A stretch of 64,000 bases of DNA from Branchipolynoe longqiensis (Eukaryota > Annelida > Polychaeta > Phyllodocida > Polynoidae). Position 1 is the first letter of the stretch, and each line of letters starts with the position of its first letter. A model generated the notes under the pieces. The model did no database searches. It had not been told where the DNA came from and worked only from the letters and a program-made list of their open reading frames with translations. The stretch covers positions 12,138,963 to 12,202,962 of the forward strand of contig CM059194.1 of assembly GCA_030323885.1 (NCBI GenBank), written 5' to 3'. Made by a program: the position numbers and the translations under genes. Positions 466 to 58,765 of this stretch are shown here, piece after piece.

Positions 466-1133
466 ATGGCCCTGTCACACTATGATGTGACGACCTCAGT
501 GTAGGGAGAACGTGAAAAACGTTGAACTTCTCGGCGTAGTATGCACATTTGGGCACGAGTTGAACGTGGATGCAGCGTAGTGGACGAGAGCGTAACGTCG
601 GTAAAGCGTAGTGATACCGTCATTCAACGAGAGAGGACAACATCAATATGCTCACAGAACGTTATGAATGTTATTCCATCGCCAGAAGAACGTTACGTGA
701 CGTTACTTACGTCATGAAACGGTGGCAAAACGGTAAACGTACGTTGGACATCCGTTAGGCGTCCATTATCCTGACGTTTTCACTACGCGGACTGCACGTT
801 CCCACCTCCTTTAATGTGGGTCAACATAATGCAACGTAGTGCAACATAGTGACCAGCATTTGACTAACGTCTGTTTAACGTCATTGACGTTCGCCGAACG
901 TGTACAGAACGTACGGCGAACGTAAACCCTTACGTTCTCGTTACGTTGAAAGTTTTGAGCAGGTTCAAAACTTTGACGCGTGCCGATGTAACACGACGTA
1001 ACGTGACGTAGCTTGATGTCAGTCTAACGTCATTCTGACATCAGCATAACGTAACCCAACGTACGTCAACGTAATGACGAAATGTGATCACGTCAGGCTT
1101 ACGTTTGCTCGTTACGTCGTAGTGTGACAGGGG
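466..1133. mobile_element. Fold-back element F1 (ACGT-word type)
   Basis: The ends are inverted copies: ATGGCCCTGTCACACTA on the left and the complement of CCCCTGTCACACTACGACG on the right, flanked by TA at 464-465 and 1134-1135. The interior is packed with the self-complementary word ACGT in variants such as AACGT, TTACGT and GTAACG. No transposase is encoded. The element at 55376-56299 has the same ends in opposite orientation and the same vocabulary, so these are two copies of one family. Confidence 0.75.
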
Positions 1134-1136
1134 TAT

Positions 1137-1548
1137 AAGCCATTCATTACGAGACATGCTGGTGCATGTGATTTTTTCTTCTCTTTTTGCTTTAAACCAA
1201 TATCATGTCTTAATGTGCCTTTGGATCTTGATCACCCTCTGTACCATGCCTGCGTGGTTAATAAGGCCAACAAGAAAAATATCATGTTTCCGGTTGTGGA
1301 GGGGGCTGAGGAATATTGTTCTGGTCGGTAGGTAGGATTGTGTTTTTTAGTGGGGGCGGGGGGGGGGAGGTTCTCAAAGCGGGGGCTGGGGGGGGGGGGA
1401 TCGAATCCGGGGCTTCCAACAGGGTCGGTCGGCAACCGGAAACTTCTTCTTTTTTTTGTAGGCCTTAGCAAAAAAAAAGAGTTTCCTGTTATAGGCAAGC
1501 AACAACAAATAAGGTATGGTGGGTAGGTAGATAAGGATTTAATTTTTC
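1137..1548. other. Unassigned intron segment with G-runs
   Basis: No gene or known repeat was recognised. G-runs occur near 1354-1370 and 1387-1400, and short pieces around a GGTCGGTAGGTA motif recur at about 344 and 1324. The overlapping short open frames are low-complexity products. Confidence 0.4.
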
Positions 1549-1705
1549 ATATTTATTCATTTATGCTATATTTACCCTGTCCATGACACATGTAGTCATC
1601 ATAACAATTGTTTTCAATGCTGAACAGCTTTTCGCCTTTAGTCATTAGTTTGTGGTTTATTGTCTTGTCCGGCTTGTTAGTAATTTATTAGTGTGTTGGT
1701 ATTCA
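1549..1705 (-). repeat. Interspersed repeat R, partial copy
   Basis: This is the reverse complement of part of the repeats at 5330-5645 and 58990-59345. Shared features are the stretch around CTGTCCATGACA, GCTGAACAG and GTTTGTGGTTTATTGTCTTGT. Its class is unknown. Confidence 0.55.
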
Positions 1706-2135
1706 GGTATTGCAATACCTCAGGAGTTTGACGCCCCTGCCCTGCAGAGTTGTAAACCCCTGCCTTGTGGTACAGGTTCTTGACAGAAACAAGGGCTACG
1801 GGAGCAAACCCTGAACAGAAAACCATGTCACTGTGGCAGCATTAAGGGCGGTTGATGTATGGAACTCCCATCATCTCCCGACCAGCTACTGCAGGGACAA
1901 ATAGTTTTGCGCCTGTCTGGACATGTTCTTGCCGGTGTGAAACCTCTATTTGCTCCCCGAGAGAGTGCCGCTGGTAACTTGCAAAAGCCAGCAGCACTTC
2001 AACACTTTTGCAGGCAGCTTTCATGAAATGTACATCACTCTCACAGCAGAGAGCTAAATGGAGAGCGGCAGTCAAGTAATGAAAGCAGTCTTTGTCGCAT
2101 CGCGACCGACAGCATGATGATGATGATGATGATGA
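1704..2135 (+). mobile_element. Retroposon-like repeat U, copy 1, with (GAT)n tail
   Basis: It is nearly colinear with 44531-44941 from the CAGGTATTG start through TGCGACCGACAGCATGATG. It ends in a (GAT)n run at about 2113-2135. A simple-repeat 3' tail and the 8-bp duplication around the other copy point to a retroposon. No intact reading frame is present. Confidence 0.6.
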
Positions 2136-2167
2136 GTGTGTTTATCTCAGAGCTACCTAGGAGAGGG

Positions 2168-2210
2168 TTTTGAAAATGTGATACTTTAATCGGACTATGC
2201 AGCTTTAAAC
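2168..2210. repeat. MITE T2 end fragment
   Basis: The GATACTTTAATCGGACTATGCAGCTTTAA stretch matches the terminal part of the T2 family found complete at 3822-4174 and 61087-61443. Only one end remains. Confidence 0.6.
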
Positions 2211-2230
2211 TGTGAACAGCTTTGTAAACA

Positions 2231-2561
2231 ACGGTTGGTTGGTTGGAGTTTTACATCCTGGCAACATTTAAGGTCAAATCAGGACAAGTACTGATTTGTG
2301 ACATCGTGCACTCATGGCAACTTTACAGTGCTGCCCCACTGGGAAATCTGGCCGTCCACACCATGACCCGATATCATACTCAGCCACGTTATCCTGACAC
2401 TGAACTAACTAGTCCTTGCCCTATCCTATTAATGCCGAACACCAAGCTAGGAAGCTACAAGTATAAATTTGATAAGTCATTGGTTTGACTCGACCGGGAA
2501 CCAAACTCCCAACCTTCTGCAACGCGAGGCCCGCGCTGTATCGATTAGGCCACCGCACCCA
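2231..2561 (-). mobile_element. tRNA-derived SINE (V-SINE/RUDI-like), type A head
   Basis: On the minus strand it reads tRNA-like head (A box near TGGCCTAATCG, B box GGTTCCCGGTCGA), conserved body, then tail ending at the CAACCAACCAAC repeat at 2231-2245. Nearly full length, about 330 bp. Confidence 0.85.
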
Positions 2562-2756
2562 GTGTCTAAAACAATATCAGATAACACAATCAGTGCTTTA
2601 TTTGTACAAGCATCACTAGTGAATTGTCAATGTGAGATAAGACTAAGGAGTGCCATTGGTGTCGGCCATTGATGTCAGCTAATGAGTCCAAGGTGTCAAG
2701 GTCACTGCCACAAGCTCGTTGAGAGGTGGACGCCGGGTGATTTGTCTGAGTTTGGT

Positions 2757-3090
2757 ATAGGTTGTTGGAGTGTATCGTCCTAGAGACATCTGAGGTCATA
2801 TCAGGACAGATACCGATTTGTGACAGTGCACATTCATGGTGACTTTATAGTGCTGCCCCACTGGGAAATCAGGCCACCAGCACCATGACCCGATATCCAT
2901 TTAGTTACATTATCCTGACACTGAGCTAACCACTCCTTGCCCTATCCTATTATAGTATTAACGCCAAGAGCCAGACTAGGAAGCGGAAGTATCAATTTTG
3001 TAAGTCATTGGTTTGACTCGACCAGGAACCGAACTCCCGACCTTCTGCACGCGGGGCCTGCGCTCTACCGATTAGGCCACCGTGGTCGGT
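2757..3090 (-). mobile_element. tRNA-derived SINE, type A head
   Basis: Second minus-strand copy of the same SINE, about 200 bp from the first. The B box region (complement of TCGACCAGGAACCGAACTCC) and the body with the GGCAGCACTATAAAG-type block are both present. Confidence 0.85.
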
Positions 3091-3216
3091 TTGCGCTTTG
3101 GATGTATTTAAGGTTAATTAAGTAGTTTTGTTGCCGGGACAGTAATAACATCTGGATCTAGGAGCTTTAATTTATTATCTAATACAATTGTGCCACCTGT
3201 CTAAATTATTTACTGG

Positions 3217-3548
3217 ACGATGTGGCAGAACACAGTTGAACGCAGGCTTTCTGTGCGGCAGGTCGGGATTTGGTTTCCCGGTCGAGTCAAACCAATGACG
3301 TACAAAATTATATTGTCGCTTCCTAGCCTGGCGCTTTGCATTAAAAAGGATAGGGCAAGGACTGGTTGGCTCAGTGTCAGATTAATCTGAGTGGGATATC
3401 GGGTCATGGTGCCAGCGGCCTGATTTCCGAATGGGGCAACACTATTAAGTCACCATGAGTGTGCACTGTCACAAGTTGGTACCCGTTCTGATATGACCTG
3501 AGATGTTGCCAGGACGTACAATGGTCAATGCCAACAGCCAACCAACCT
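3217..3548 (+). mobile_element. tRNA-derived SINE, type A head
   Basis: Plus-strand copy with a decayed A box, the B box GGTTTCCCGGTCGAGTC, the full body, and the tail GACCTGAGATGTTGCCAGGA ending in an AACCAACC repeat. Confidence 0.85.
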
Positions 3549-3821
3549 GTCTAAATTATGAGTTTTGAGTGTTCACCCATTTCCTTTGGATTGTTAGTTG
3601 CGCAGGTTCATCTAATTCCAGAACTATGGTATCCTGTCATAGTTCCAAAGGTTCTACGATACTGTAGTAGTATGTTGGTAATTCATCCTATGTTGGTAAT
3701 TCATCCTACTTCTAGTGAGGTACAAGTTAACCATACCTTTAGAGAGGGAAACGACGTGAAGGGATTTTCTGTTTTTAAATATTTTTAAAGTATGTTTTTA
3801 AGTATGCTTTCTTTGTTAAGT

Positions 3822-4174
3822 TAAAGTTGCATATTCCGATGGTTTTGAGTTTCTGAAATTTTCTGAGATAAATACATTAGGTTGATTGTTATTATGTACC
3901 TTACTTTAGCTTAAAGTAACTTTTATTTTAAGTGGCTAACTTTTGAGATATTTGAAGTGGAACCATGCAAAATTAATTTTGGCAAGCACGCCAAAGCTCT
4001 GACCCCATAGGCTTCTGCAGTAACCAGTTATATTCAATTGCCTCAGTATTCCCTTATCTGTGGTGACAATGTTTAATAAGTGCACCAGTATCTAAGTTAG
4101 ATATGTAGAATCACATTTAGATAGTTGTTTTGGTTTTGAAAATTTGATATTTTCATCGGACTACGCAGCTTTAA
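3822..4174. mobile_element. MITE T2, full-length copy
   Basis: About 350 bp, bounded by inverted ends: TTAAAGTTGCATATTCCGATGG on the left and its near-complement ATCGGACTACGCAGCTTTAA on the right. The interior is non-coding, with the same order of blocks as the copies at 43951 and 61087. It is a non-autonomous DNA element by structure; the superfamily is not identified. Confidence 0.75.
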
Positions 4175-4467
4175 GTTCACAGTTATTTGCAATTGAGTAA
4201 TTTAGTAATTGTGGTAGATGCATTCTAATTAGATCTAACTTCCTTTTTATAAACTTTGCCTCTTCGGTAGATATTCTTGGTCTATTTGTGATTATTTGCT
4301 CAACTACATTCCCTCGAAAGGTTAAACGTTTATATTCAGTGGTACTTCTTGGGGTAATGAGGTAACTATGTCTTCTCTATTTTTAATGTCTCTTCTAGTT
4401 TATTTTATCTACGACTGACTATATATCACATACAATGACAGACAGTTTATCCAGTCAGCCCTGACTC

Positions 4468-4800
4468 AGACGGGATGGCCTAATGAGTGGAGTGTTCGTC
4501 TCCCGTTTTGGTAGATCGTGGGGGTTCGAACCCTGGTCGAGTCAAACCAATGCCTTAAAAATTTATACTTGTCACTTCCTAGCGAGGCGCTCGCCAATAT
4601 TAGAATAGGGCAAGGACTTGTTGGGTCAGTGTGAAGATGTGACTGAGTGGGATATCAGGTCATGGTGCTGGTGGCCTGGTCTCCCAGTGAGGGAGCGCTG
4701 TAATTGTAAAGTCGCCATGAGTGCGCACTGTTAAAAATCGGTACCCGTCCTGATATGACCGTAGCGGTTGTCAGGACATAAAACTCCAACAACCAACCAA
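4468..4800 (+). mobile_element. tRNA-derived SINE, type B head
   Basis: The head is the B type: CAGACGGGATGGCC.., a short arm ending TTTTGGTAGATCGTGG, then B box GGTTCGAACCCTGG. The body and tail are the same as in type A copies. It ends in CAACAACCAACCAA. Confidence 0.85.
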
Positions 4801-6540: not shown

Positions 6541-7998
6541 CCACATAGTTGAAACCTGACTTCTGGCATTTTCCTGCGATTCCTTGACAGTGCTAATCCT
6601 ATGGGGAGGGGCGTATAAGGTGTAGCAAGGATAGTTGAAACCTGACTTCCGTCATTTTCCCGCGATTCCTTGACAGGGCTAATCCTATGGTGGGGGGGGG
6701 GGGGGGGTACGTATAAGGTGTAGCAAGGATAGTTGAAACCTGACTTCCGTCATTTTCCCGCGATTCCTTGACAGGGCTAATCCTATGGGGGGGGGGGGGG
6801 GGGGGGGACTTATAAGGTGTAGCAAAGATAGTTGAAACCTGACTTCCGTCATTTTCCCGCGATTCCTTGACAGGGCTAATCCTATGGGGGGGGGGGGGGG
6901 GGGGACATATAAGGTGTAGCAAAGATAGTTGAAACCTGACTTCCGTCATTTTCCCGCGATTCCTTGACAGGGCTAATCCTATGGGGGGGGGGGGGACTAT
7001 AAGGTGTAGCAAAGATAGTTGAAACCTGACTTCTGTCATTTTCCCGCGATTCCTTGACAGGGCTAATCCTATGGGGGGGGGGGGGGGGACATATAAGGTG
7101 TAGCAAGGATAGTTGAAACCTGACTTCTGGCATTTCCCCGCGATTCCTTGACAGGGCTAATCCTATGGGGGGGGGGGGGACTTATAAGGTGTAGCAAAGA
7201 TAGTTGAAACCTGACTTCCGTCATTTTCCCGCGATTCCTTGACAGGGCTAATCCTATGGGGGGGGGGGGGGGAGGGACATATAAGGTGTAGCAAAGATAG
7301 TTGAAACCTGACTTCCAGAATTTTCCCACGATTCCTTGGCAGAACTAATCCTATGGGGGTGGGGGGGGGGGGACATATAAGGTGTAGCAAAGATAGTTGA
7401 AACCTGACTTCTGGCATTTTCCCGCGATTCCTTGACAGGTGCTAATCCTATGGGGGGGGGGGGGGGGGGGACATATAAGGTGTAGCAAAGATAGTTGAAA
7501 CCTGACTTCTGTCATTTTCCCGCGATTCCTTGACAGGGCTAATCCTATGGGGGGGGGGGGACTTATAAGGTGTAGCAAAGATAGTTGAAACCTGACTTCT
7601 GGCATTTTCCGCGATTCCTTGACAGGCTAATCCTATGGGGGGGGGGGGACATATAAGGTGTAGCAAAGATAGTTGAAACCTGACTTCTGGCATTTTCCCG
7701 CGATTCCTTGACAGGGCTAATCCTATGGGGGGGGGGGGGACATATAAGGTGTAGCAAAGATAGTTGAAACCTGACTTCTGGCATTTTCCCGCGATTCCTT
7801 GACAGGGCTAATCCTATGGGGGGGGGGGGGGGGGACATATAAGGTGTAGCAAAGATAGTTGAAACCTGACTTCCGGCATTTTCCCGCGATTCCTTGACAG
7901 GGCTAATCCTAGGGGGGGGGGGGGGGGGGGGACATATAAGGTGTAGCAAGGATAGTTGAAACCTGACTTCCGGCATTTTTCCGCGATTGCTTGACATT
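6541..7998. repeat. Minisatellite M1, 16 units of about 90 bp with long G-runs
   Basis: Sixteen head-to-tail units each contain GTTGAAACCTGACTTC, CATTTTCCCGCGATTCC and TTGACAGGGCTAATCCTATG, followed by a G-run of varying length (4 to about 24). Units differ mainly in the G-run. The unit matches the interior of the dispersed H elements (for example 47500-47560 and 59630-59695), so the array is an amplified H segment. The proline-rich open frames on the minus strand are by-products of the G-runs. Confidence 0.92.
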
Positions 7999-8370: not shown

Positions 8371-8692
8371 GCTTGTTGTTGTTTTCCGTTCTGGCAACAT
8401 CTAAGGTCATATCAGGATGGGTATCGAATTATGACAGTGCACACTCATGGTGACTTTATAGTGCTGCCTCACTGGGAAATCAGGTCACCGGCACCATGAC
8501 CCGATATCCCACTCAGTCATATTATCCTGACACTGAGCTAACCAGTACTTGCCCTATCCTATTAATGCCAAGCACGAGGCTATGTAGTGACAAGTATCAA
8601 TTTTAAAGTCTTCGGTTTGACTCGACTGGGAACCAAACTCCCGACCTTCCGCACGCGAGGCCCGCACTAGCGATTAGGCCACTGCGCCCGGT
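8371..8692 (-). mobile_element. tRNA-derived SINE, type A head
   Basis: Full-length minus-strand copy. The tail is at 8371-8410 and the tRNA-like head, with the complement of GGTTCCCAGTCGAGTC, is at about 8615-8692. It stands head-to-head with the next SINE across a 34-bp spacer. Confidence 0.85.
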
Positions 8693-8726
8693 CCACATGA
8701 TCGGTACAGATCATGGAGGGCGGACG

Positions 8727-9006
8727 CGCTGGCCGAATCGGTAGAACGTAAGCCTCCCGTGCGGGAGATCGGAGGTTCGGTTCCCGGTCGAGTCAAACCA
8801 GTGACTCGGTAAATTTAAATACTTGTCGCTTCCTAGCTTGGCGCTCAGCATTAAGAGGATAGGGCAAGGACTGGTTAGCTCAGTGTCAGAATAATGTGAC
8901 TTGGTGGGATATCAGGTTAGGGTGCCTGTGGCCTGATCTCCCAGTGGGGCAACACTCTAATTTGTCATGAGTGTGCGCTGTCACAAGTCGGTCTCGCCCT
9001 GATATG
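8727..9006 (+). mobile_element. tRNA-derived SINE, type A head, tail cut
   Basis: The head reads GACGCGCTGGCCGAATCGG.. and the B box is GGTTCGGTTCCCGG. The body is complete, but the copy stops within the tail at GATATGACCG, where it joins a reversed type B head. Confidence 0.82.
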
Positions 9007-9082: not shown

Positions 9083-9580
9083 AAGGCCTGGTGTAACGAT
9101 TTCAATTTCCCCCGTTTTCAAGTTCCCCCGGGGAATCTGAAAACATTTTTAACTTCCCTGGGGGGAAATTAAAAACGTTTTAAGATTCCTTTCCCTATTT
9201 TCAAATTCCCCCCTCCGGGAATTTAAAATTGTTTAACAAACTTTAAAATACTTTAAAAAACGTTTTAAAATTCAGACCTATAATATTTTGTTCTTAGCCA
9301 TCTTGGAGACTTTTTGTGTCATTTGGGATGACATATGTTTTGTTGTACTAGTAATATTATTAGTAATAATTGTCATTATGCTATTCTCTGTGTATTATTA
9401 TATTTGTCATGAAAAATAACAAAAAATAACAAAAATAAAGAAAATTCCCCAAAAATGGAGGGAGGGAAAGTTAAAACGAGGGAGGGAACTTGAAAACGTT
9501 TTCAAATTCCCTGGGATGAATTTAAAACATTTTCAAGTTCCCAGGAGTGAACTTCAATCAGGGAGGAATTTGAAATCTTA
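9083..9580. mobile_element. Fold-back element F2 (TTCCC/GGGAA-word type)
   Basis: The left end is AAGGCCTGGTGTAACGATTTC. The interior alternates TTTTCAAGTTCCC and its complement GGGAATTTGAAAAC many times, and the right end, GGAATTTGAAATCTTA, complements the left inner part. Element F3 starts at its right border, so the right terminus may be incomplete. Confidence 0.6.
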
Positions 9581-10354
9581 AAGGCCCTGTCACACTACAA
9601 TGTTTCCCACCAACGCGCGTCGACGTGTTGCCTTTTTGGTCGAAACGTCGTTACCGGCGCGTCGGTACACGTAGACTGATAGCAACGTGTGATCCAACAC
9701 GTTGGCTCCCGTCGGCGCCCGCTGGCTCGCGCCGATCGTTTTGTGCTTGCACAAAACTTTCGGCAGGCCGCAACGCACGTCAGCGTGTTGGCGGGGGCGT
9801 TACGGACGTGTTAGCAACACGTCGGCACCCATTGGCGGCGCGCCAGCGGAACGCTGGCAGGACATTAATCAACGTCAGTTAACGTTGGCTTTTTTCCCCC
9901 CAAAATGCGACCATTCCGTTGGCGCGTCCGTAATGTCCAATCGACGGGTAGTGGGCACGATATTGGCGTTGCTCCAATGTTTTTCGACGCATTGGACGTG
10001 TTGCCGGCGCGTCTGGGATTGCTAGTGGCGGGTTTGGACGTGTTCTCGGCACGTCTTGACGTGTTGCTGGCGGGTGTGTATGCGTTGACACGGTATTAAC
10101 ACAATACCAACGCGCTGCCTACACGCCAGCGGCGCGCCACTAACACGCCACCAACACGCCACCGGCATGCTACCGACGGGCCAATGACACATTACTAGCA
10201 CGCCAATAACGCGCCACCAACACGCCACTAGCACGCTGCGCCCCATCAAACTTTCTCCCAAATCGCCGAAGAGTTGGACGTGTGTCGACGGGTTGCAAAT
10301 ATTTTGCACGTTGCCGGCACGCCGGTGAGAAACGTCGTCGTGTGACAGGGCCTT
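9581..10354. mobile_element. Fold-back element F3 (CGTGTTGGC-word type)
   Basis: Inverted ends AAGGCCCTGTCACAC and its complement are flanked by TA at 9579-9580 and 10355-10356. The interior is built from ACGTGTTGGC, GGCGCGTC and their complements, and its first half complements its second half. There is no transposase; the short frames inside are by-products. Confidence 0.75.
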
Positions 10355-10625: not shown

Positions 10626-10809
10626 TTGCAAAACTCTCATCCATAATTCACCGGGTCGGAAAGGTCACACACAGGCACGACGGCTTCTATTTGACGGTCT
10701 CCAGACAGCAGTACATCATTCACAGTTTGTGACAGTCTATTGATCCATGATGCTGACATACTCTAGCGTGCTCGAATGTGCTCTAGCGTACTCTAGCATA
10801 CTTGGACGA

Positions 10810-11077
10810 AGCCCTGGTCACATAGCAATTAGTGGACGTAGGTGAACATAGTGGAGGCTAACGTAGTTTAACGTACTGGCATCCATACCGTAACGCATTT
10901 ATCTGTACCATAACATATATGTCCATACTATAACATATTTATCTGTTCCAAAACCTGCCGTACTTTAACGTATTTCAACGTAGTTCAACAAACTTACACC
11001 ACGTTTGACCCACATTAGCATCCACTATGTTCACCTACATTCAACTACGTTCACTAACGTGTATGTGACTGGGGCGT
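10810..11077. mobile_element. Fold-back element F4 (CGTAGT-word type)
   Basis: The left end AGCCCTGGTCACATAG and the right end TATGTGACTGGGGC are complementary. The interior holds GAACATAGTGGA, AACGTAGTTCAAC and complements such as GTTCACCTACAT. The flanking duplication is unclear. Confidence 0.6.
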
Positions 11078-11382: not shown

Positions 11383-12294
11383 TTAAAGTTACATAAGCCG
11401 TGTTTACACGGGGAATTGTAAAACGATGTAGACAAACCGATTTATATGAAGCGATGTAGCGGCGCGTTTACACGGACCAAGTTTGAAAGTGTGTCGGCGC
11501 CGGGAACCAGCAGCCTTAGTGGGGAGTCTGTAGCCGGCGAGCACTGCTATTTGTTTAGTTTACACTCGTCGATTCGACAATAAAATAGCTGCTACGTTAA
11601 TATCGCTTCGAATTTAGGGTTAATTTAATTAAATTTCATTATTTGAGTATGTAATTCTGTTAAATATGATCGCATTCAATAGATTTCGGCCTAATCGGTC
11701 CTTAACACTGCTGGGCACCAGCGATAGTTACAGCTGAGCGTGTAGCCGGCGAGCACCGCTATTTTACACTATTGCTGCCCGGGAACGGGCTGAATCGCTT
11801 CATCTATACTACCTCGCAAGGTGGTTTACATCTACCGATTTATATGAATCGATTCAGCCCTAAAACGCCTCAGCATTGCGTTTACACGACAAATGTGAAT
11901 CGATCTAGGCAAGTCGTTTTATATGAGGCGTTTTAAATCGCCCATGTAAACAGGGCTATAGTCTGTTGGTCTTGAGTTTCTGATATTTTCTGAGATAAAT
12001 ACATTAGATTAATCGTTATCAATTACCCTTATTTTAGCTTAAAGTAACTTATTTTAAGTGGCTAACCTTTGAGATATTTGAAGTGCAACCATGCAAAATT
12101 AATTTTGGCAATCTGTCCAAAACTTTGATACCATTGCCTTCTGCAGTAACTAGTTCTATTCAATTCCCTCACTGTTCTCTTCTGTGTGGCAACAAATGTT
12201 TAATAAGTGCATCAATATCTGCATTATAATCAAATTTAGATAATTGTTTTGGGTTTGACAAATTTGATGTTTTCATCGGATTATGCAGGTTTAA
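11383..12294. mobile_element. MITE T2 copy interrupted by F5
   Basis: The left T2 end GATTAAAGTTACATA lies at 11382-11395. The rest of T2 resumes at 11959 (TAGTCTGTTGGTC..) and runs to TTATGCAGGTTTAAG near 12294. Removing F5 and one TA restores the T2 terminal sequence, so F5 jumped into T2. Confidence 0.75.
11396..11958. mobile_element. Fold-back element F5 (ATCGATT-word type)
   Basis: The ends are AGCCGTGTTTACACGG and the complement of TAGCCCTGTTTACATGG, flanked by TA at 11394-11395 and 11959-11960. Internal words are GAATCGATT, CGATTTATATGA and GCCGGCGAGCAC. The insertion sits inside a T2 element with a clean TA duplication. Confidence 0.75.
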
Positions 12295-13365: not shown

Positions 13366-14200
13366 GAACGCGGTGGCCGAATCGGTAAGAAGCCCCAGTC
13401 ACACACACCCGGATCAAGGGCCGGACGAGCCCCGGACCGCCATCCGGGGTGGTCCAGGGCGGTCCGTGGCTCGTCCGTGTGTCGTCTGTGGCGACCCCCC
13501 CTGATCCGGCCTGATCCGTGGCTCATCCGGCGCTGTCCGGGCTCAGCCCCGGATGTTTTAAAATGTTTAAAACATCCGGGGCGGTCCGGGGGATTTTGCG
13601 ATCCGGCTCAATCCGGCATGATCCGGGGGGGGAGGGGGTCCGGGTAATTCAGGGGTGGACCGGGGTGGTCCGGGGTCATTTTGAGCCATGGTTTGACCCG
13701 GACCATCCCCGGACTATCCAGGACTACCCCTGGCCTAGCCACGGACCACTCCCGGACTGTCCGGGGGTGATCCGGGATAGTCCGGGGGTGGTCTGGGGCA
13801 ATCCGGGGGGTGGTCCGGCCTCGTCCGGGTTAGTCAGGGGCCGGTCCGGCCCAGTCCAGGGCCGTTCCGGGGGTGGTCCGGGGCGGTCCGGCCTTTGGTC
13901 CGGGGCTCATCCGGGAAGGTGTGACTGTGAGGCAAAAATCGACGAAAACAGTGATTTTATCCGTGGCGGTCCGGGACAGTCCGGGCCGTTGGTCCATGGG
14001 TGGTCCGGCTCAAAATCCGGGGCTCGTCCGGCTATGTGTGACTGGGGCTAATGCTTCCCGTACGGAAGGTCGGGAGTTCGAATCCCAGCCGAGTCAAACC
14101 AATGATTAAACAAATTGTTAGTTGTTGTTACCCAGCCTGGTGATCAGTAGTCCTTGGATAGGGCAAGGACTCGTTAGCTCAGTGCCAGGATAAGGATAAT
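13366..14200 (+). mobile_element. tRNA-derived SINE, type A, interrupted by F6
   Basis: Head bases ACGCGGTGGCCGAATCGG lie at 13368-13385. The head resumes at 14049 with GCTTCCCGTACGGAAGGTCGG and B box GAGTTCGAATCCC. The body is cut near 14200. F6 therefore landed in the tRNA-like head. Confidence 0.75.
13388..14048. mobile_element. Fold-back element F6 (TCCGG-word type)
   Basis: The ends GAAGCCCCAGTCACACACA and its complement TGTGTGACTGGGGC are flanked by TA at 13386-13387 and 14049-14050. The inside is almost wholly TCCGGGG, GGTCCGG, CATCCGGGG and complements. The long open frame across it simply reflects the absence of stop codons in this GC-rich word. Confidence 0.78.
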
Positions 14201-16649: not shown

Positions 16650-16974
16650 TATACCGTATATGTCCAAATAGACGCACTCTACCCAATAGAAGCACACCCC
16701 CCATTTTAAGATTGAAAGCGCGCACAAATTTACGATCATATTCAGACTGAATGCACATAAAATAAGACAATCCCACTTTATTTCAGAGGCACGACAAAAA
16801 CAAATACAAATTTACGATCATATTCAGACTTAATGCACATCAGATAAGACAATCCCACTTTATTTCAGAGGCACGACAAAAACAAATCCATGAAATTCTT
16901 TAACTTAATGCACATCCACGAGTCTGCACTCGCGCAGTGCTTGTCTATTGGGACATATACAGTATTTACTGTAA
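16650..16974. mobile_element. MITE G, copy 1
   Basis: The ends are inverted: ATACCGTATATGTCCAAATAGACG and the complement of GTCTATTGGGACATATACAGTA. Inside, a block of about 85 bp (ATTTACGATCATATTCAGACT to CACGACAAAAACAAAT) occurs twice in tandem. The second copy of the family is at 51272-51676. Confidence 0.7.
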
Positions 16975-17227: not shown

Positions 17228-17745
17228 GGGGCGGTGATGAAAATGGGAAATATTGTGCATAGAGTGGGAATCGAACCCACATCTAGTTGCATTCCGGTCC
17301 AGTTTGCTAACCATTACACCACTTAAGCCTGGTACACACCTCCCATATATGATTCACGCGCTAAAACTGACTGCCCGACGGGACCCGTCACAACCCAACC
17401 CATCCAGTTTCCCGACTGAGTTTTAGTCGGTTTCAGTCTTTAGGTGTGTGACCCCCTAACACACCAGAGCCTTGCGATTGGCAACTTACTGCCCGATTAA
17501 TTTTTCGAATCTTATAAAGCCCCATACATACCTCCCGTATAAAACCTAAAACTGAGTTTTATACGTGAATCAGAAGCCTCAGGTGTGTTAGGGGGTCACA
17601 CACCTAAAGACTGAAACCGACTAAAACTCAAACTTAGTCACAAAACGGGCAGTTTTAGGTTTTATACGGGAGGTGTGTACCGGGCATAAGACCACTAAGG
17701 CTCCATGATGTCGCCACCCTACCCACGCTTACCTGTCTATGTGTC
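17228..17745 (-). mobile_element. tRNA-derived SINE-2, interrupted by F7
   Basis: The minus strand reads a tRNA-like head (GTGGTGTAATGGTTAGCAAAC, B box GGGTTCGATTCCCACTC) and the tail GCACAATATTTCCCATTTTC found in the copies at 18108 and 18448. The head's 5' side resumes at 17697 after F7 (TAAGGCTCCATGATGTC). Confidence 0.65.
17324..17690. mobile_element. Fold-back element F7 (CTAAAACTGA-word type)
   Basis: The inverted ends are TAAGCCTGGTACACACC and the complement of CTTATGCCCGGTACACACC. Internal words are CTAAAACTGA, AAACCGACTAAAACTCA and complements. ACCACT is repeated at both borders (17318-17323 and 17691-17696), and removing the insert restores the SINE-2 head, so the duplication here looks like 6 bp rather than TA. 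Confidence 0.68.
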
Positions 17746-38556: not shown

Positions 38557-38598
38557 GGTATGACCTTAGATGTTGCCAGGACCAAAACCGCCAATACC
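38557..38598 (+). mobile_element. SINE 3' tail fragment
   Basis: GGTATGACCTTAGATGTTGCC, then AGGACCAAAACCGCC. Solitary. Confidence 0.6.
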
Positions 38599-38706
38599 CT
38601 GAGGTCCTGTCCAATGCTGGCCTTGGAACCAATGTAAAGGAGAAACCTTTTTAAAAAAATATTTTTTGTAATAGTTCATAAGGACAATCAGACAGCCTCT
38701 TGTAGT

Positions 38707-39033
38707 TCTAGAAGGGATGGCCGAATGAGTTGAGCGTCCATCTCCCTTTTGATAGATCATGGGACTTGAACCCTGGTCGAGTCAAAAAAATTATTTAAAA
38801 ACTGATACTTGTCACTTCCTAGCCAGGTGCTCGGCGTTATTAGAATAGGGCAGGGACTGGTTGACTCAGTGTCAGGATAATGTGACTCAGGCCATGGTGC
38901 TTGTGGTCTGGTCTCCCAGTGGGGGAGCACTATAAAGTCTCCATTTATGTGCACTGTCACACAAGTCGGTACCCGTACTGATATGACCTTTGATGTTGCC
39001 AGGACGTAAGACTCCAATAACCAACCAACCAAA
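38707..39033 (+). mobile_element. tRNA-derived SINE, type B head
   Basis: AGAAGGGATGGCCGAATGAG head, body with a small deletion at GTGACTCAGGCCATGG, and tail GATATGACCTTTGATGTTGCC ending CCAACCAACC. It ends 58 bp before the next exon. Confidence 0.84.
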
Positions 39034-39164: not shown

Positions 39165-39664
39165 GTGAGTGACGTAGTGCCGGACACCTCTGGGCATTTT
39201 CTAGTTCATGGACCGTATTTAGTGTCCACCTACGGGATGTTTTTTCTGAATTCCCGGTTTGTCTGGCACTTTATACAATGTCATTACTAATACTAACCTT
39301 CTATTTGATACGAACCCTCAGTGGGATATAATCTAGCCCTTCCTGATACCCAGATAGCACACATTCGTCGGCCCGACGGCGGCCGCTCCGGCAGCCCGAC
39401 GGTGGAAAACGCCGTCGGGCCGACATTGTTTTGTCCAACCTCCCGCCGTCGGGGTGACGGCGGCTGCCGCCGTCGGGGCGACGGCGGCTGCCGCCGTCGG
39501 GGCGATGGCGACAAACGCCGTCGGGCCGACGTTGTTTTGTCCAACCATCCACCGTCGACTCGACGGCGGCTGCCGCCGGCGGCCCGACGGCGACAAACGC
39601 TGTCGGGCCGACGTTGTTTTGTCCAACCATCCACCGTCGACTCGACGGCGGCTGCCGCCGTCGA

Positions 39665-39824
39665 CCCGAGAAGACACTGTCACTGTAGTGTCAGTACGTA
39701 CAGCCTACAGGTGCAAAAATATTAGTTTTATTCAAAATTAATAGAAATCGAGAACCCATACCTTATAAATTTAATATAGTCTGTACGTATTGACACTATA
39801 GTGACAGTGACAGTGTCTTCTCGG
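39665..39824. repeat. Inverted repeat inside F9
   Basis: CCCGAGAAGACACTGTCACT..GTCAGTACGTACAG (39665-39703) is mirrored by CTGTACGTATTGACACTATA..GTGTCTTCTCGGG (about 39780-39824). This gives a stem of about 40 bp with a loop of about 75 bp. Confidence 0.75.
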
Positions 39825-39867
39825 GAAAAAACAAGATGACGGTTCTTGGTCAACCTTCCGTACATGG

Positions 39868-40262
39868 TAATTCAAATCGCATTAACACGAATAATTCCAT
39901 TAATACTTCGTAATAAATTACAAAACTTTTACAAAATAATCTAAACATATTAATAAACAAACCTGGTAAATGATTCCTTAAAATTCCTGGGATTTCTGGA
40001 GTTATTGGTAGAAAAAGAACACTGATCAACGATCGCACGTGTTCCGGTCGCGATTCGAAGTAAACAAACCGTATCGGATAATTCAAATCGTATTAACACG
40101 AATAATTCCATTAATACTTCGTAATAAATTACAAAACTTTTACAAAATAATCTAAGCATATTAATAAACAAACTGGTAAATGATTCCTTAAAATTCCTGG
40201 TATTTCTGGAGTTACTGGTAGAAAAAGAACACTGATCAACAATCGCACGTGGTCCGCGGGCG
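39868..40262. repeat. Two-unit tandem duplication inside F9
   Basis: A block of about 211 bp starting at AATTCAAATCGCATTAACAC (39870) is repeated at 40081. Both contain AATAATTCCATTAATACTTC and GAACACTGATCAAC, with few differences, so the duplication is young. Confidence 0.8.
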
Positions 40263-40882
40263 ACTCGAGCCGGAATGCAAATTTAAAGAACTGCGCATGC
40301 GCGGCGCACCACCGTCGGCTCGACGGTGGCTCGACGGTGGACCAGACGTGGAAAATGAATGCACACCTGCGGCGGCCCACCACCATCGAGTCGACGATGG
40401 CCCGACGGTGAATCAAAAGTGGAAAGGGATTGAACCCTAACGTCGGAACACCACCGGCGGCCCGACGGTGGCCCGACGGTGGCTCAAAAGTGGAAAAGGA
40501 TTGAAACCTAAGGTCGGGACACCACCGTTGGGGCGACGGTGGCCCGACGGTGTACCAGACGTGGAAAAATGAATGCAAACCTGCGGCGGCCCACCACCGT
40601 CGGGCCGCTGGAGGCCCGACGGCTCAAAAGTGGAAATTTGGATTGAACCCTAACGTCGGAACACCACCGGCGGCCCGACGGTGGCCCCATGGTGGCTCAA
40701 AAGTAGAAAGGGATTGATTCCCAACGTCGGAAATCCACCGGTGGCCCGACGGCGGCCCGACGGTGGAAAGTCGATCGCGACGGTGCGACCAATAGCCGAC
40801 GTCGGCCCGACGGCTGTGTGCTATCTGGGTATGACCTTAAATGTTGCCAGAACGTAAAGCTCCAACAAACAATCAACCAACC

Positions 40883-45300: not shown

Positions 45301-45571
45301 AAGCCCCAGTCACACCACAGCTTGCAATTACTTTGCGACCTCTTTGGACCAAAGAAGCCACCTCGTTGCAACCCCCTTGCAACCAAAGCAATGGTTGCCT
45401 ACATCTGGGTGATCATTTTGGTCGCAAGGAGGTTTTTAGTGCAGTAGCTGCAACCTCCTTGTGACTAGTTCGGTGACCACTGATGACCACATGACAATCA
45501 CTTGCGACCTCATTGTGGCCACCCCTTTTTGTGGTCGCAAAGTAGTTGTAAGCGGTAGTGTGACTGGGGGT
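45301..45571. mobile_element. Fold-back element F10 (TTGCGACC-word type)
   Basis: Ends AAGCCCCAGTCACACCAC and the complement of CCCCCAGTCACACTACC, with TA at 45299-45300 and 45572-45573. The interior consists of TTGCGACC, GGTCGCAA, CAACCTCCTTG and variants. It lies 40 bp before the exon at 45612. Confidence 0.78.
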
Positions 45572-48518: not shown

Positions 48519-48591
48519 TATTTGCACTACTAACTATCCCGGGAGCAAGTGTCAGTTGGTTCAATTTGATATATTGGGTCATGATGTTATA

Positions 48592-48856
48592 TCCCAGGCA
48601 CACTACTGTTTGGGATCCCTTCCGATCCCTTTGCAACCACAAAAAAAGGGTTGGTCACAAAATGGTCCTCACTGGTCGCCACCTCCTTGTGACAATTTTA
48701 GTCGCAAGAAGGTTACAGCTACTACACTAAAAATCTTCTTGCGACCAAAATGGTCGCCTGGAGGTTGGCGACCATTGCTTTGGTCACAAGGAGGTCACCA
48801 GTGACTGTGGATTCTTTGTTCCAAAGTGGTCGCAAGCCATAGTGTGACTAAGGCTT
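48592..48856. mobile_element. Fold-back element F11 (GGTCGC-word type)
   Basis: Ends TCCCAGGCACACTACTG and the complement of AAGCCTTAGTCACACTATG, with TA at 48590-48591 and 48857-48858. Internal words are GGTCGCAAG, CTTGCGACC and GGAGGTTGGCGACC. Related in vocabulary to F10 and F14, probably the same family. Confidence 0.7.
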
Positions 48857-48945: not shown

Positions 48946-49095
48946 TCCTATGTTGCTTAGATAAGAGCAATCAGTCAATCGTCCTGACCAGTTATGAGTT
49001 CATCCAATATTTTCTGACTCATAATTTATTATAAGCTCAATTTACTTCTTTACAATCGTTGATTAAACAGTGACAATCTCAATCGTGGACAATTA

Positions 49096-49622
49096 AGCTA
49101 AGATTCCTTACACGTGGCATGCGGTATGCGAATGTGGCAACAAATCGAAATGCCTTGAAGTCAATGGGCTACATTCCTTACACGCGGTATGCGAATGCGG
49201 CAACTCGATCTGTCCCTGTAGCGATCGGTGCGGTATGCGAATAGAAACCTCAGTCGCACGTGTCCATTAGTTTTAGACGAGGAGAGGCGACTGATCATTA
49301 CGGAACGGTCACACACAGGGGTACGGAGTGGTGGTGGTGGTGGGAAGACGGACGGTAACGGGTCGGTAAAAATGATACCATATCCACAGAAATATGAATA
49401 CTTATCTATAATTTGGTAATTATAAAGGTAGGAATCCCCATGTGACGTATCAAGACGTACATAGATATAAACACCATATTAGGTCATATACAGTGCATTA
49501 TGGAGTATACTTGTTTATTTTTATTTTTAAAATGTAGCCAGTCGTGTGCCACATGCCGCATACCGCGTAGAAGGAATCCTCCCATTCGCATGCCGCATAC
49601 CGCGTAGAAGGAATCCTAGCTT
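49096..49622. mobile_element. Fold-back element F12 (GCATACCGCAT-word type)
   Basis: Ends AGCTAAGATTCCTTACACG and the complement of AAGCTAGGATTCCTTCTACG, with TA at 49094-49095 and 49623-49624. The words GCGGTATGCGAATG, GGCATGCGG and complements fill the outer parts. The centre is non-repetitive and contains a GGTGGTGGTGGTGGG run. Confidence 0.75.
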
Positions 49623-52127: not shown

Positions 52128-52386
52128 CTTATGGGGCCTGGAAAGTCTTGAAAAGTCTTGAACTTCATTTGCCCATTTCAAGGCCTTTGGATAATTAGTC
52201 TTGAAAAGCCTTGAATTCCGTTAAACTGTCCCCACTGATCTAAATTGGTCTGAAATCGGCATTCGCTATCGTCTTTTTTCTCCTCAAACCCAAATGAAAA
52301 TCGTCTTGAATTCCTGTCAAAAGGAGCCTTGAAAAGCCTTATAATAGCCTTGAAGTCCATATTTTTACATGTCTACGGACCCTGCA
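52128..52386. mobile_element. MITE E, full copy
   Basis: GAGTCCTTATGGGGCCTGGAAAG to ACATGTCTACGGACCCTGC, colinear with 41349-41586. Confidence 0.62.
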
Positions 52387-55373: not shown

Positions 55374-55375
55374 TA

Positions 55376-56299
55376 CCCCTGTCACACTACGACGTAATGA
55401 GCCAATGTAAGCCTGACGTGCTCACGTTTCGTCATTACGTTGACGTACGTTGGGTTACGTTATGATGATGTCAGAATGACGTTAGACTGACGTTGAGCTA
55501 CGTCACGTTACGTTGTGTTACGTCGGGGCGCGTCAAGGTGTTGCATGTTCAAAACTTTCGATGTAGCTTGACGTGAAGCTGTTACGTTGGGATGACGTCA
55601 CGCTGACGTCACCCCGACATTAGGCGACCGTCACAGCTGCGTTGGTGACGTTAGATCCACGTCCCGCTACGTCAGAGCGATGCACAGTTGGGGAGGAACG
55701 TGTGGCCAGTGTTAAGTCAACGTTGCTCTAACGTCAGGCGAACGAGTCTGTGGCGCATGGTGAATGTCGCTCCAACGCTTTGATAACGTGTCCCGACGTC
55801 GTTGACGTCGTCGACGACCCTTTAGCGCGTGCGTAACGTCGATGAGGTCAATGGAACGTGTTCTGAACGTGGTGTGAACGTACATACACAAGGTGCGGGT
55901 GGGTCGGGTGCTTTGACTGACGTCGGCCCACGTTCCCGTTACTTCGAGCGCGTCAGCCACACGCTGTGATCACTCTGACGACTTTGGCGTGACGTCAGGG
56001 CGACGTTAGGCTATAACGGTCGAGTCGGACGTCCCAACGTTCGAGCGAACGTGATCACGCTAGGCCGACGTTAGAGCACCGTTGGAGTCACGCTAGCCCG
56101 GTGTTGAGCGCGCTGGAGTGCCGCTACTCTGACCTTGACACAATACGCTAGCCTGACGTCACGGTGATGTCACACCCATGTCAACTACGCTGCGTCCACG
56201 TTCAACTTGTGCCCAAATTTGCATACTACGCTGAGAAGTTCGACGTTTTTCACATTCTCCCTACGCTGACGTCGTTACGTCGTAGTGTGACAGGGCCAT
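55376..56299. mobile_element. Fold-back element F13 (ACGT-word type)
   Basis: The ends CCCCTGTCACACTACGACGT and the complement of ATGGCCCTGTCACACTACGA are flanked by TA at 55374-55375 and 56300-56301. It is dense in GACGTCA, TTACGT, AACGTCA and complements. Reverse-oriented sibling of F1, longer by about 250 bp. Confidence 0.8.
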
Positions 56300-56462: not shown

Positions 56463-56761
56463 CACCGGACACGGTGGCCGAATCGGTAGAGTGCAGGCCT
56501 TCTGTGCCGAAGGTTGGGAGTTCAATTCCCAGTTGAGTCAAACCAATGACTTTCAAAATCAATACTTGTCACTTCCCAGCCAGGCGCTCTGTATTATTAG
56601 GATAGGGCAAGGACTGCTTTGCTCAGTGTCAGGATAATGCTGGTGGCCTTGTCTCCCAGTAGGGCAGCACCATAAAGTCGGCATGAGTGCGCACTGTCAC
56701 AAGTCGGTTCCCGTCCTGATGTGACCGTAAATGTTGCCCGGATGTAAAACTCCAACAACCA
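56463..56761 (+). mobile_element. tRNA-derived SINE, type A head
   Basis: CCGGACACGGTGGCCGAATCG head, body with a deletion after CAGGATAATG, tail ending CCAACAACCAAC. Confidence 0.83.
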
Positions 56762-56763
56762 AC

Positions 56764-57081
56764 TGTTTTTTTGTTTTTTTTGAAGATTTATACTGCCTAT
56801 CATGGATAAGCCTGAATAGGCTTGTTTTCACCATTAGACAGTTTGTCGATAGAAAGCCCGTGCCTACACTTTTACCGACCCAGGGGATTTTTAACCTCCC
56901 ACACCACATAGACATGGTATGAGAGCAACTGGCCTTTGATGATGCTGAAGGTTATACACAGTGGTGGAAATCCAAATTGGCAGAGATGGGGGCAGGGGGA
57001 ATCGAACCACCGACCTTCAGATTCGAGTCCGACCTAGAAAAAAGTCAGATACTCTAACCACTCCACCACAGAGAACACCAC
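56764..57081 (-). mobile_element. tRNA-derived SINE-4
   Basis: Very similar to 47872-48195. On the minus strand the head TGTGGTGGAGTGGTTAGAG, B box GTGGTTCGATTCCCC and full body are present. It directly abuts the tail of the previous SINE. Confidence 0.78.
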
Positions 57082-57480
57082 TGTTTAACCTATATATATC
57101 ACTCATTTGAGATGAGAGCAAATGAACCACCAATTTCCTGATGTAAAAGCAGAAGAATGAGGAAAATCAATTACAAAAATTTATAAATTGAGATTTCGCG
57201 TAGACGTTCAATAAATGAATAGAAATGAAACAAATACTATGCTTCCATCGGTGATAGCTAATTGCGATGTACAAATTACAAGTGATGCTTATCGGTGATT
57301 AGAGTCTGTCTGGTGTTTAATCGGATAACCCGACATCCTTTCCACAGAGTTACGGAAAGGTTAGTTGTCCCACTCGGTATACGCACGTGGAACGTGGATG
57401 CCAAGCTTTATTAGAGCATAGATGCAAATGCTTTGTTATTAGATCACATGCACCATGATTTATTCATAGGCTATGTACAC

Positions 57481-58075
57481 ACCACCATTTGTTCTTAGAG
57501 CATGGACAGCATGATTTGTTCCTAGACTAGAGTCTATGATTTGTTCTTATACTAGAGTCCGTGATTTATTCTTATGTTTAGATGATTTGTTCTTAGACTA
57601 TAGAGTCCATGATTTGTTCTTTGAATATAGAGTCATTGATTTGTTCTTAGACTATAGAGCCCGTGATTTGCTCCTAGACTATAGATTCCGTGATTTGTTC
57701 CTAGACTAGAGTCCGTGATTTGTTCCTACACTAGAGTCCATGATTTGTTCCTTTACTATAGATTCCATGATTTGTTCCTAGACTAGAGTCCATGATTCGT
57801 TCCTAGACTAGAGTCCATGATTTGTTCTTAGACTATGGAGTCCGTGATTTTTTCTTAGACTATCGAGTCTGTGATTTGTTCCTTGACTATAGACTCTATG
57901 ATTTGTTCCTAGAAGTAAATAGTAGTAAAATAATTGTCTGAATATCCCATGATTTGTTCCTAGACAGAAGTCCATGATTTGTTCCTGGAAGTAAATAGTA
58001 GTAACATAATTATAAGAATATCCCATGCCTTGTTCCTAGACTAGAGTCCATGATTTGTTCCTAGACCATGACCTG
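57481..58075. repeat. Minisatellite M9, 25-29 bp units
   Basis: About 18 units of GATTTGTTCCTAGACTAGAG, then TCCAT with variants. Each has TTTGTTC(C/T)TAGA, which looks like a weak 3' splice site. No exon was recognised next to it. Confidence 0.85.
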
Positions 58076-58157
58076 ATCTCTTCGGTCACATGACTAACTT
58101 CAGTTATTTACCAGCTTGCGTTGATTATTTGTCATGGTTTGTGTTTCATCGGAGGCA

Positions 58158-58489
58158 CACCGGACGCGGTGGTCCAATATATAGAGCGCAGGCTTCCGTG
58201 AGGAAGGTCAGGAGTTTGATTCCCGGTCTAGTCAAACCAATGACTTACAAAATTGATACTTGTCGCTTCCTAGCCTGGCACTCGGCATTATTAAGATAGC
58301 GCAAGGACTGGTTAGCTCAGTGTCAGGATAATGTGACTGAGTGGGATATCAGGTCATGGTGCTGGTGGTGCTCTCCCTGTGGGGGAAGCACTATAAAGTC
58401 ACCATGAGTGTGCACTGTCACAAGTCGGTATCAGTCCTGATATGACCTTAGATGTTGGCAGGACGTGAAACTGCAACATGCAACCAAAT
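58158..58489 (+). mobile_element. tRNA-derived SINE, type A head
   Basis: CCGGACGCGGTGGTCCAATA head, B box GAGTTTGATTCCCGG, full body and tail GATATGACCTTAGATGTTGG. Confidence 0.84.
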
Positions 58490-58614
58490 AAATGATTGGA
58501 GCCACACAGTCTAGTCACGCGTTTAGACTTGACGACAGTGGCTGTAACAAAGGCTCAAAGTTCCTAAGGTTCACGCTCATACTGACATCTTTAGCCCGCA
58601 TCTCCCAGCTTATA

Positions 58615-58765
58615 CCCCAGTCACACTACTGCATGCTTGCAACGATTTTGCGACCATAAAAAAGGGGTGATCGCAAAATTGTCGCAACTGCTTGTTGCCA
58701 ACCTCCATACAACAATTTTAGTCACAATGAGGTTGCAGCTACTGCACTAAAAACCGCCTTGTTAT
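58615..58765. mobile_element. Fold-back element F14 (TTGCGACC-word type), right part missing
   Basis: The left end CCCCAGTCACACTACTGC is preceded by TA and followed by GCAACGATTTTGCGACC and relatives. It stops near AAAACCGCCTTG. Same family as F10/F11. Confidence 0.6.

Follow-up and report, generated by a model that had tools for sequence, protein, structure and literature searches.

Family-specific words at near-helical spacing between shared TA-flanked ends in a group of fold-back elements of Branchipolynoe longqiensis

We analysed a 64,000-nucleotide stretch of Branchipolynoe longqiensis DNA (contig CM059194.1, positions 12,138,963 to 12,202,962, forward strand; genome of 1.85 Gb), here called the window, which carries a group of fold-back elements. 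Fourteen of them, F1 to F14, had been described as sharing one plan in an earlier sequence-only reading, whose numbering we retain. These fold-back elements are real, but the 14 are not one set. A core group of eight (F1, F3, F4, F6, F10, F11, F13 and F14; about five families) has inward-facing, TA-flanked ends of the form SCCCWGTCACA(C); F5, F7 and F9 follow only a looser end plan (CCC or GCC near TTACA, TACACAC or GCACAC), and the ends of F2, F8 and F12 are of other types. The motif SCCCWGTCACA is present in 12 exact copies in the 64 kb, against about 0.12 expected by an arithmetic estimate, and every copy is an element end. Exact motifs occupy both ends of F1, F3, F6, F10 and F13, the right end of F4 and the left end of F14, while degenerate versions with 2 mismatches lie at the right end of F11 and the left end of F4. 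One end of F1, F10 and F13 reads A[AT]GSCCC, and the opposite end has CCCC after the TA. Several of the 14 elements were recovered by a scan for inverted TA-flanked ends. The TA reported on both sides was seen by eye in 12 of the 14, evidence that is weak for F2, F5, F8 and F12, where the end base was freely chosen; F4 is flanked on its left by TG, and the right half of F14 is gone. The core elements are, in window coordinates:

F1: 466 to 1133, minus strand, ACGT-word element in the reverse orientation of F13; TA at 464-465 and 1134-1135, exact ends, period 10.6 bp (z 7.3).
F3: 9581 to 10354, plus strand, CGTGTTG/ACGCG-word element; both ends AAGGCCCTGTCACAC, best period 11.0 bp (z 6.9).
F4: 10809 to 11076, plus strand, ACGTAG-word element; left end with 2 mismatches and no TA, period 9.7 bp (z 5.4) and a second peak at 10.8 bp (z 3.3).
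F6: 13388 to 14048, plus strand, TCCGG-word element; TA at 13386-13387 and 14049-14050, period 10.6 bp (z 14.6).
F10: 45301 to 45570, minus strand, TTGCGACC-word element; exact ends, homologous to F11.
F11: 48590 to 48856, plus strand, member of the F10/F14 family; TA duplication backed by paralogous empty sites.
F13: 55374 to 56299, plus strand, ACGT-word element; exact ends, period 10.6 bp (z 10.3), 39 more long matches in the genome with 40 candidates scored.
F14: 58615 to 58760, plus strand, an F10/F11-type element of which just the left half is present.

F1 and F13 form one family and F10, F11 and F14 another, the homology of F10 and F11 standing at z 39 in local alignment against shuffles. 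Among 20 cross-family pairings, only F1 with F3 (z 3.6, at the landmark palindrome described below) and F13 with reversed F4 (z 5.8) aligned better than all 60 shuffles. The fold-back structure itself was confirmed, DNA folding energy lying below dinucleotide shuffles in all 14 stretches folded (13 of the elements, with F9 as two arms and F14 left out; z -3.0 to -17.1). The idea of one repeated word per element holds in a looser sense: canonical 6-mer pair counts exceeded shuffles in 12 of 12 stretches tested, but several of the exact words named are rare in the window (CGTGTTGGC once, CTAAAACTGA twice, and ATCGATT six times vs about 8 expected). The elements are short, non-coding and of high copy number with inverted ends, as are miniature inverted-repeat transposable elements (MITEs), and they have the long inverted repeats of short, mutually pairing tandem units that characterise Foldback elements.

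The main regularity of these elements, overlooked in the sequence-only reading, is a near-helical period. The word is repeated at intervals of 10.5-11 bp in F1, F3, F6 and F13, by mixed steps of 10 and 11 bp and near the helical repeat of DNA; equal words lie 10/11, 20-22, 31-33, 41-45 and 53-55 bp apart. The best pair-spectrum periods (6-20 bp) of these four elements, as listed above, and that of F2 (10.5 bp, z 5.7) compare with a largest shuffle z of 3.8-5.0. Lattice fits gave 10.56 bp for F1, 10.53 bp for F13, 10.62 bp for F6 and 10.61 bp for F3, and were matched by 2 of 972, 0 of 991, 0 of 967 and 7 of 1000 shuffles, respectively. Short-range periods were 10.42-10.61 bp in F13, 10.55-10.87 bp in F1 and 10.38-10.77 bp in F3, the interval for F6 being too wide to judge. 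Across the window, periods of 10.1-11.3 bp dominate 39 of 636 segments of 400 bp at z of at least 5, and 23 of these overlap a core element by at least 150 bp; of the 31 segments that overlap a core element by at least 250 bp, 18 are so dominated. Phasing at 10-11 bp was absent from the pair spectra of F5, F7, F8 and F12, and the arms of F9 peak at 8.2 bp (left) and 10.1 bp (right). Of six control inverted repeats, one (16659-16957, which includes a tandem repeat of 82 bp) had several peaks, one of them near 10.3 bp at z 9.1. A coding origin (an amphipathic helix, 3.5 residues x 3) was rejected because steps of 10 and 11 shift the reading frame; F1 holds no frame of at least 75 aa, and F13 holds one, of 85 aa. 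Separately, CTTGAAAAG/AGCCTTGAAA words recur at about 10 bp at 52130-52360 and 32190-32240, two places that lack the shared ends.

A second feature that had been overlooked is a palindrome of 19-20 bp, the landmark, which is common to the ACGT, F3-type and F6 elements and one new element. It lies in the window as follows:

F1 landmark: 952 to 971, minus strand, GTTTTGAACCTGCTCAAAAC, about 164 bp from the CCCC-type end.
F3 landmark: 9738 to 9757, plus strand, palindrome GTTTTGTGCTTGCACAAAAC.
F6 landmark: 13555 to 13573, plus strand, GTTTTAAAATGTTTAAAAC, within a hairpin with a 17-bp stem.

The pattern GTTTTN4-5TGNNNAAAAC occurs in the window in F1, F3 and F6 only, 157-165 bp from one end (3 occurrences vs 0.04 expected, for a pattern derived from these same three elements). 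Perfect hairpins with a stem of at least 9 are centred 174, 167 and 174 bp from one end in F1, F3 and F6, which none of 500 shuffle sets reproduced; the shared AAAAC offset alone was reproduced by 4 of 2000 shuffles. AAAAC is also found at 135-141 bp in F4, F10 and F14. A consensus of the ACGT family has the perfect palindrome GTTTTGAACATGTTCAAAAC at 164, and the perfect palindrome GTTTTGTGCATGCACAAAAC is present in another F3-type copy (at 204) and in a 2.5-kb element (507 from its right end).

Copies elsewhere in the genome show that the interiors of F13 and F1 are inherited. Matches to F13 numbered 41, of which 40 were long (F13 itself included), among 40 candidates scored of 6659 at first look; the others are 81-90% identical to F13. 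A 950-bp consensus of 13 copies (F13 and 12 fetched matches) contains 55 ACGT words vs 30-43 per copy, and has a lattice of 10.76 bp (0 of 500 shuffles), a spectral period of 10.7 bp (z 13.8) and a ratio of word-core to remaining information of 5.3. A consensus richer in words, with this ratio, indicates that the source had more words and that its spacers were already free. The F13 copies carry 20 distinct deletions, 14 of them unit-like (11 of 9-12 bp and 3 of 18-20 bp). F1 is identical to a copy on chromosome C4 at 545 of 639 positions over the whole length, with well-flanked gaps of 10, 10, 20, 9 and 11 bp, and its interior is also shared with two part copies over the portion they hold. A second F3 copy, likewise on C4, has a period of 10.7 bp (z 13.4). 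Because gap placement in periodic sequence favours unit lengths, these indels show the gain and loss of units and not its cause. A viral-contig and a genome-contig collection yielded 0 matches each. The F1 and F13 interiors do not align, though both are built of ACGT words, and this had suggested an interior rebuilt in every copy; the F1 copies and the 39 further F13 matches led us to reject this, and they speak against the strand-switching rewrite of interiors offered in the sequence-only reading.

The same ends and period were found in 200 kb of the same genome, chosen blind on chromosomes C1 and C4. The exact end motif is present 11 times in this sample, as four inward pairs (8 ends) and three lone ends. 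These ends define seven stretches, those with a lone end being limited to 409, 703 and 1500 bp, and all seven have their peak at 10.5-10.9 bp with z 5.0-18.1, against shuffle maxima of 3.3-4.1; the weakest is a 2.5-kb pair that is clearly helical at its right end only. Among the seven are further elements with words of the ACGT, F3 and TCCGG types, partly the same families as in the window, and one with a new word, GCGCC. Other arrays dominated by 10.2-11.2 bp were noted at L009:7001-7600, L017:4601-5000, L017:8601-9100 and L024:6501-7200, with the words CATACG, CCAAC/CCGAC, AACGT and AACGGA; for the first three, no end could be recognised within 700 bp.

A 1.3-kb locus of the sample (C1:50016656-50017960; L010:6656-7960) holds, in order, an end, a phased array, a landmark-like sequence and a transposase fragment. 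The end is TTTAAGCGCCTGTCACAC, with 1 mismatch. The CCGGA/ACCGG array has best periods of 10.6, 10.5 and 10.1 bp in three segments (z 10-14) and is interrupted by another repeat; the landmark-like sequence is GAATGTTCAAAACTT, and the landmark-like TGTTCAAAACTT matches at 12 of 15. The fragment (L010:7425-7724) is a decayed DDE_Tnp_4 (PIF/Harbinger-type) transposase with 335 protein matches at E <=1e-3 (best 1.6e-22, at 60% identity). PF13359 is in the 120 matches listed, and of those that bear a name three are ALP1-like and the rest are uncharacterised or hypothetical; solved structures gave no useful match, only two weak ones. In the window itself, a Pfam scan of 118 of the 173 stop-to-stop frames of at least 75 aa (tandem arrays and most in-element frames left out) detected no transposase family; the matches were to kinesin (2), FHA (1) and one weak RNase J model, so a host kinesin-type gene runs through part of the window. 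No Tc1/mariner transposase was detected among these frames and 91 of 113 from the limited sample. Myb and MADF domains occur in the 200 kb.

Target duplications were assessed at paralogous empty sites. Duplication of TA, a Tc1/mariner trait, is seen for two elements with the better choice of TA: F11 has an exact 2-bp duplication in 10 of 19 alignments with its outer left TA, whereas its inner left TA gives 0 of 10; for F5 one right TA gives 2 of 2 and the other 0 of 2. It is not seen for F6 (0 of 12 exact, 8 differing by 6 bp) or F7 (0 of 2). All 13 F13 copies have TA ahead of the CCCC-type end, and 12 of them have TA behind the opposite end. Read by eye, the three bases preceding TACCCC are TTA in 6 copies, TAA in 6 and CCA in 1; if the right side is taken as TTA (12 of 13), the two flanks show an identical 3 bp in 6 of the 13 copies. 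The remnant on C1, a single locus, favours PIF/Harbinger over Tc1/mariner. Tc1/mariner-type elements with interiors rewritten by strand switching or hairpin repair would account for the TA flanks, the strong fold-back and the unalignable interiors of F1 and F13; with the F13 interior inherited in 39 further long matches, that of F1 in one full and two part copies, and a Harbinger-type remnant as the sole linked transposase, we judge this explanation very improbable indeed.

The six elements outside the core group are listed below without strand:

F2: 9096 to 9578, TTCCC/TTTTAA words; different ends, pair-spectrum peak at 10.5 bp.
F5: 11396 to 11958, ends GCC[GC]TGTTTACA; TA duplication fits 2 empty sites, words unphased at 10-11 bp.
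F7: 17326 to 17686, ends GCCYGGTACACACC; strong fold-back, unphased at 10-11 bp.
F8: 27842 to 28580, GGGTTA words; other ends, unphased at 10-11 bp.
F9: 39349 to 40829, ends CCCAGATAGCACACA; arms of 24-bp and 71-bp tandem repeats with CCGTCGGGC.
F12: 49094 to 49617, GCATACCGC words in short arms; other ends, unphased at 10-11 bp.

A single TA is common to the right side of F2 and the left side of F3 (9578-9581), and F3 may have inserted into the TA flanking F2. An inverted repeat (GAGAAGACACTGTCACTGTAGTGTCA) is nested in the middle of F9 (39669-40300), where part of the sequence is also duplicated in tandem. Elsewhere, the window carries a very abundant interspersed repeat composed of GTGCACTGTCACAAGTCGGTACCC and a tRNA-like GGTTTGACTCGACCGGGAACC part, often in inverted pairs (2240-4800, 8450-8960, 36220-39030 and many more places), for which 89 genome matches to 8400-9000 were reported. 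Minisatellite arrays with 97, 75, 48, 36 and 51-bp units lie at 6545-7996, 26429-27668, 34203-34743 and 62093-63408.

The eight core elements belong to a single superfamily of MITE-like DNA transposons, non-autonomous and presumably mobilised in trans, in which the TA-flanked ends and, in several families, the inner palindrome are conserved; to this extent the proposal of non-autonomous inverted-repeat elements with shared ends and different words has stood. We favour, with a probability of roughly 0.5, the reading that they are Harbinger-like and that the word of each family, repeated in phase with the helix, provides an array of sites for a mobility protein particular to that family. The word would be the recognition core of this DNA-binding protein, most plausibly a Myb/SANT/MADF-like accessory protein, or the DNA-binding domain of the transposase, of PIF/Harbinger-type autonomous relatives. 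One-turn spacing would place the sites on a single face of the DNA, where the protein could load in adjacent positions and so mark the ends or bring them together, and the enzyme would then cut at the shared termini. Arrays would lengthen and shorten by one-turn units. If the specificity of the binding protein changed in a lineage, the word could be replaced across the array while the ends and the landmark stayed. As a broader and more tentative proposal, possible though on balance doubtful, this may be a word-switching superfamily in which ends, TA target and central palindrome are fixed and the word of an array running along one face of the helix is replaced as a unit, family by family, in step with a fast-evolving, element-encoded DNA-binding protein. 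Each family might then be a private mobility address on a shared chassis, by analogy with plasmid iterons or VANDAL/VANC motifs, though here in an animal and on a helical lattice.

A number of findings weigh against the site-array reading. F4, F10 and F11 (best periods 9.7, 14.1 and 9.8 bp) show 10.8-11.3 bp only as a secondary peak, F14 has no significant period between 6 and 20 bp in the pair spectrum, and single words of F2 (TTCC/TTTTAA), F10 and F11 gave no 10.5-bp lattice. Independent steps of 10 and 11 bp yield lattices as coherent as those observed, and coherence is gone beyond 650 bp in F13 and F3; phase over a whole element is therefore not proven, and a true lattice and accumulating 10/11 steps are inseparable by the coherence test. 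The 16 dominated segments outside the core elements fall in F2, in part of F9, in tandem arrays and in a small number of repeats rich in words, and 9-11 bp are the commonest periods among all repeat-rich segments. The converse of the sample result fails, as an end (at most 1 mismatch) lies within 700 bp of only 16 of 39 merged 10.1-11.3-bp regions, and many of the end-less regions are microsatellites or tandem arrays. No good landmark match was found in F4, F10, F11, F14, the second TCCGG-type copy or the GCGCC element. Well-flanked gaps are mixed in three other family pairs, from 1 to 49 bp: 11, 49, 10, 1, 4 and 1 bp between F3 and its C4 copy; 10, 2, 16, 3, 5 and 11 bp between F10 and F11; and 2, 5, 1, 4, 23, 1, 1, 2 and 11 bp between F6 and a TCCGG-type stretch. 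The transposase fragment scores 22.8 bits in Pfam, below the cut-off of 24.8, and its separate pieces have no Pfam match; the locus is single and degraded, and its right end was not found. The 3-bp TWA target duplication typical of PIF/Harbinger is not consistently seen, strict TWA fitting 6 of 13 F13 copies. Words and the rest are equally conserved at non-CpG columns of the F13 copies (0.978 both), which gives no sign of selection on words after insertion and is as expected of dead copies. One-mismatch neighbours of ACGT overall average only 0.08 on the lattice.

Core and spacer contrast also bears on the array picture. In an unanchored cyclic hidden Markov model, ACGT carries 0.7-1.2 bits in four columns and the other seven columns carry 0.03-0.23. 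The resulting core/rest ratio is 7.9 for ACGT, vs 1.15-2.36 in 18 simulated, uniformly decayed minisatellites; that for F6 is 2.72, barely above its simulations (17 of 18 at 1.19-2.59, one at 6.6); and that for F3 is 1.38, inside its simulations (1.2-2.2) and without core/spacer contrast. The last two values count against the array of sites, and from the three ratios together the picture is firm for ACGT only, possible for F6 and absent for F3, which resembles a degenerate minisatellite and may be a younger expansion. Words decayed at CpG (ATGT, ACAT) keep to the ACGT lattice with a mean cosine of 0.24, as high as which are 4 of 77 control 4-mers; decayed F6 words do so at 0.25, with 0 of 16 controls as high. 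Between the end modules of F1 and F13 (190 and 140 aligned bp) there are 12 transversions and 31 transitions, and 22 of the transitions fall at CpG. Minisatellite slippage, in which 10-11 bp tandem arms expand by replication slippage and then decay, leaving the word as a unit remnant with no binding role, fits the uniform decay of F3, the fresh 11-bp tandem units seen on C4 in copies from both the ACGT and the F3 family, the predominance of unit-length deletions among F13 copies, words no better conserved after insertion, and the general frequency of 9-11 bp periods. It does not sit well with an ACGT contrast of 7.9, and of 5.3 in the consensus, outside all 18 simulations. At least three word families (ACGT, F3 and F6) fall at 10-11 bp in a window whose tandem arrays range over 9-97 bp units, and words that differ are enclosed by shared ends and, in several families, accompanied by a shared landmark. 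We regard slippage as rather unlikely.

CpG content raises a further possibility, that structure rather than sequence is selected: phased steps might bend DNA, place nucleosomes, or offer a CpG once per turn to methylation. CpG is contained in 8 of the 11 words first described, and its observed/expected ratio is high in F1 (1.70), F3 (1.42) and F13 (1.50), compared with 0.82 in F6, 0.40-0.45 in F10 and F11 and 0.54 in the rest of the window. CpG alone is phased in F1 (R 2.96 vs a shuffle maximum of 2.54), but not beyond every shuffle in F3, F6 and F13. The short-range periods of F13, F1 and F3 also lie above the nucleosomal DNA period of about 10.2 bp, and a single bending motif would suffice, yet each family has its own word. 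We consider selection for structure improbable.

If the site-array reading is true, one genome holds many natural experiments, with different recognition words on the same scaffold at the same helical pitch. Escape from cross-mobilisation, and turnover of DNA-binding specificity together with a whole site array, would become directly testable, and the families would be a ready supply of protein/site pairs.

In the open literature searched, the combination of different words, common ends, near-helical pitch and palindrome was absent from the titles and abstracts listed. Among the matches listed, no title concerned helical word arrays in transposons, and the end sequences as text gave no transposon title, the match in a satellite paper being a PCR primer. 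The view that no named family has per-family words gives way to precedents in Arabidopsis VANDAL/VANC and in Foldback elements, Tm1 among them, with their composite inverted repeats. At the origins of plasmids and small DNA viruses, iterons repeat a word specific to the family at helical spacing, next to a palindrome that is conserved; these are replication origins and not transposon interiors, and serve as an analogy only.

Related VANDAL transposons of Arabidopsis have different tandem-repeated non-coding motifs bound by co-evolving, family-specific proteins (PMC5735166, PMC10398659). Like the elements here, they have accumulated different short motifs in their non-coding parts; unlike them, they are plant elements with a known anti-silencing protein and, in the texts searched, no helical phasing. 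We know of no shared palindrome in VANDAL/VANC. An anti-silencing role, with an element-encoded protein binding the family word and stripping silencing marks, would explain the same pattern of related elements with different short motifs derived by tandem repeat formation (PMC5735166, PMC10398659). The Pfam scans of window and sample frames, the only search made for such a protein, gave no candidate, and 'helical', 'periodic' and 'spacing' are absent from the main texts of both papers; we rate this role as quite improbable.

Harbinger elements require a transposase and a Myb-like protein, and that of zebrafish Harbinger3_DR binds a 9-bp subterminal motif (PMC9710019); the terminal inverted repeats of PIF/Harbinger usually begin with A or G (PMC9710019, PMC4482050). 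PIF/Harbinger MITEs and Harbinger3_DR resemble the elements here in being moved in trans, and a Harbinger-type transposase fragment here lies behind a similar end and array. The differences are the long one-turn array, the word per family, the palindrome in several families and a TA-like duplication in place of a consistent TWA. Foldback elements such as Drosophila FB, with 10/20/31-bp repeats, provide the structural parallel. Inner repeats of Galileo carry extra transposase sites (PMC3688188), and Tm1 combines composite inverted repeats with asymmetric end motifs and a conserved inner motif (PMC3169594). Tm1 has units of about 14 bp and target duplications of 9 bp (PMC3169594), and Tetris units of 220 bp and duplications of 8-10 bp (PMC4079207). 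Composite inverted repeats of tandem units are common to Tm1, Tetris, Galileo and the elements described here; those Foldback elements have one word, whereas here the ends are constant and the word varies from family to family. Taken together, the Harbinger Myb-like protein, Galileo and VANDAL lead us to prefer an array of sites that is specific to each family and phased with the helix. The individual parts have precedents; what seems new is their joint occurrence, with words that differ between families, ends that do not, a near-helical pitch and, in several families, a shared palindrome.

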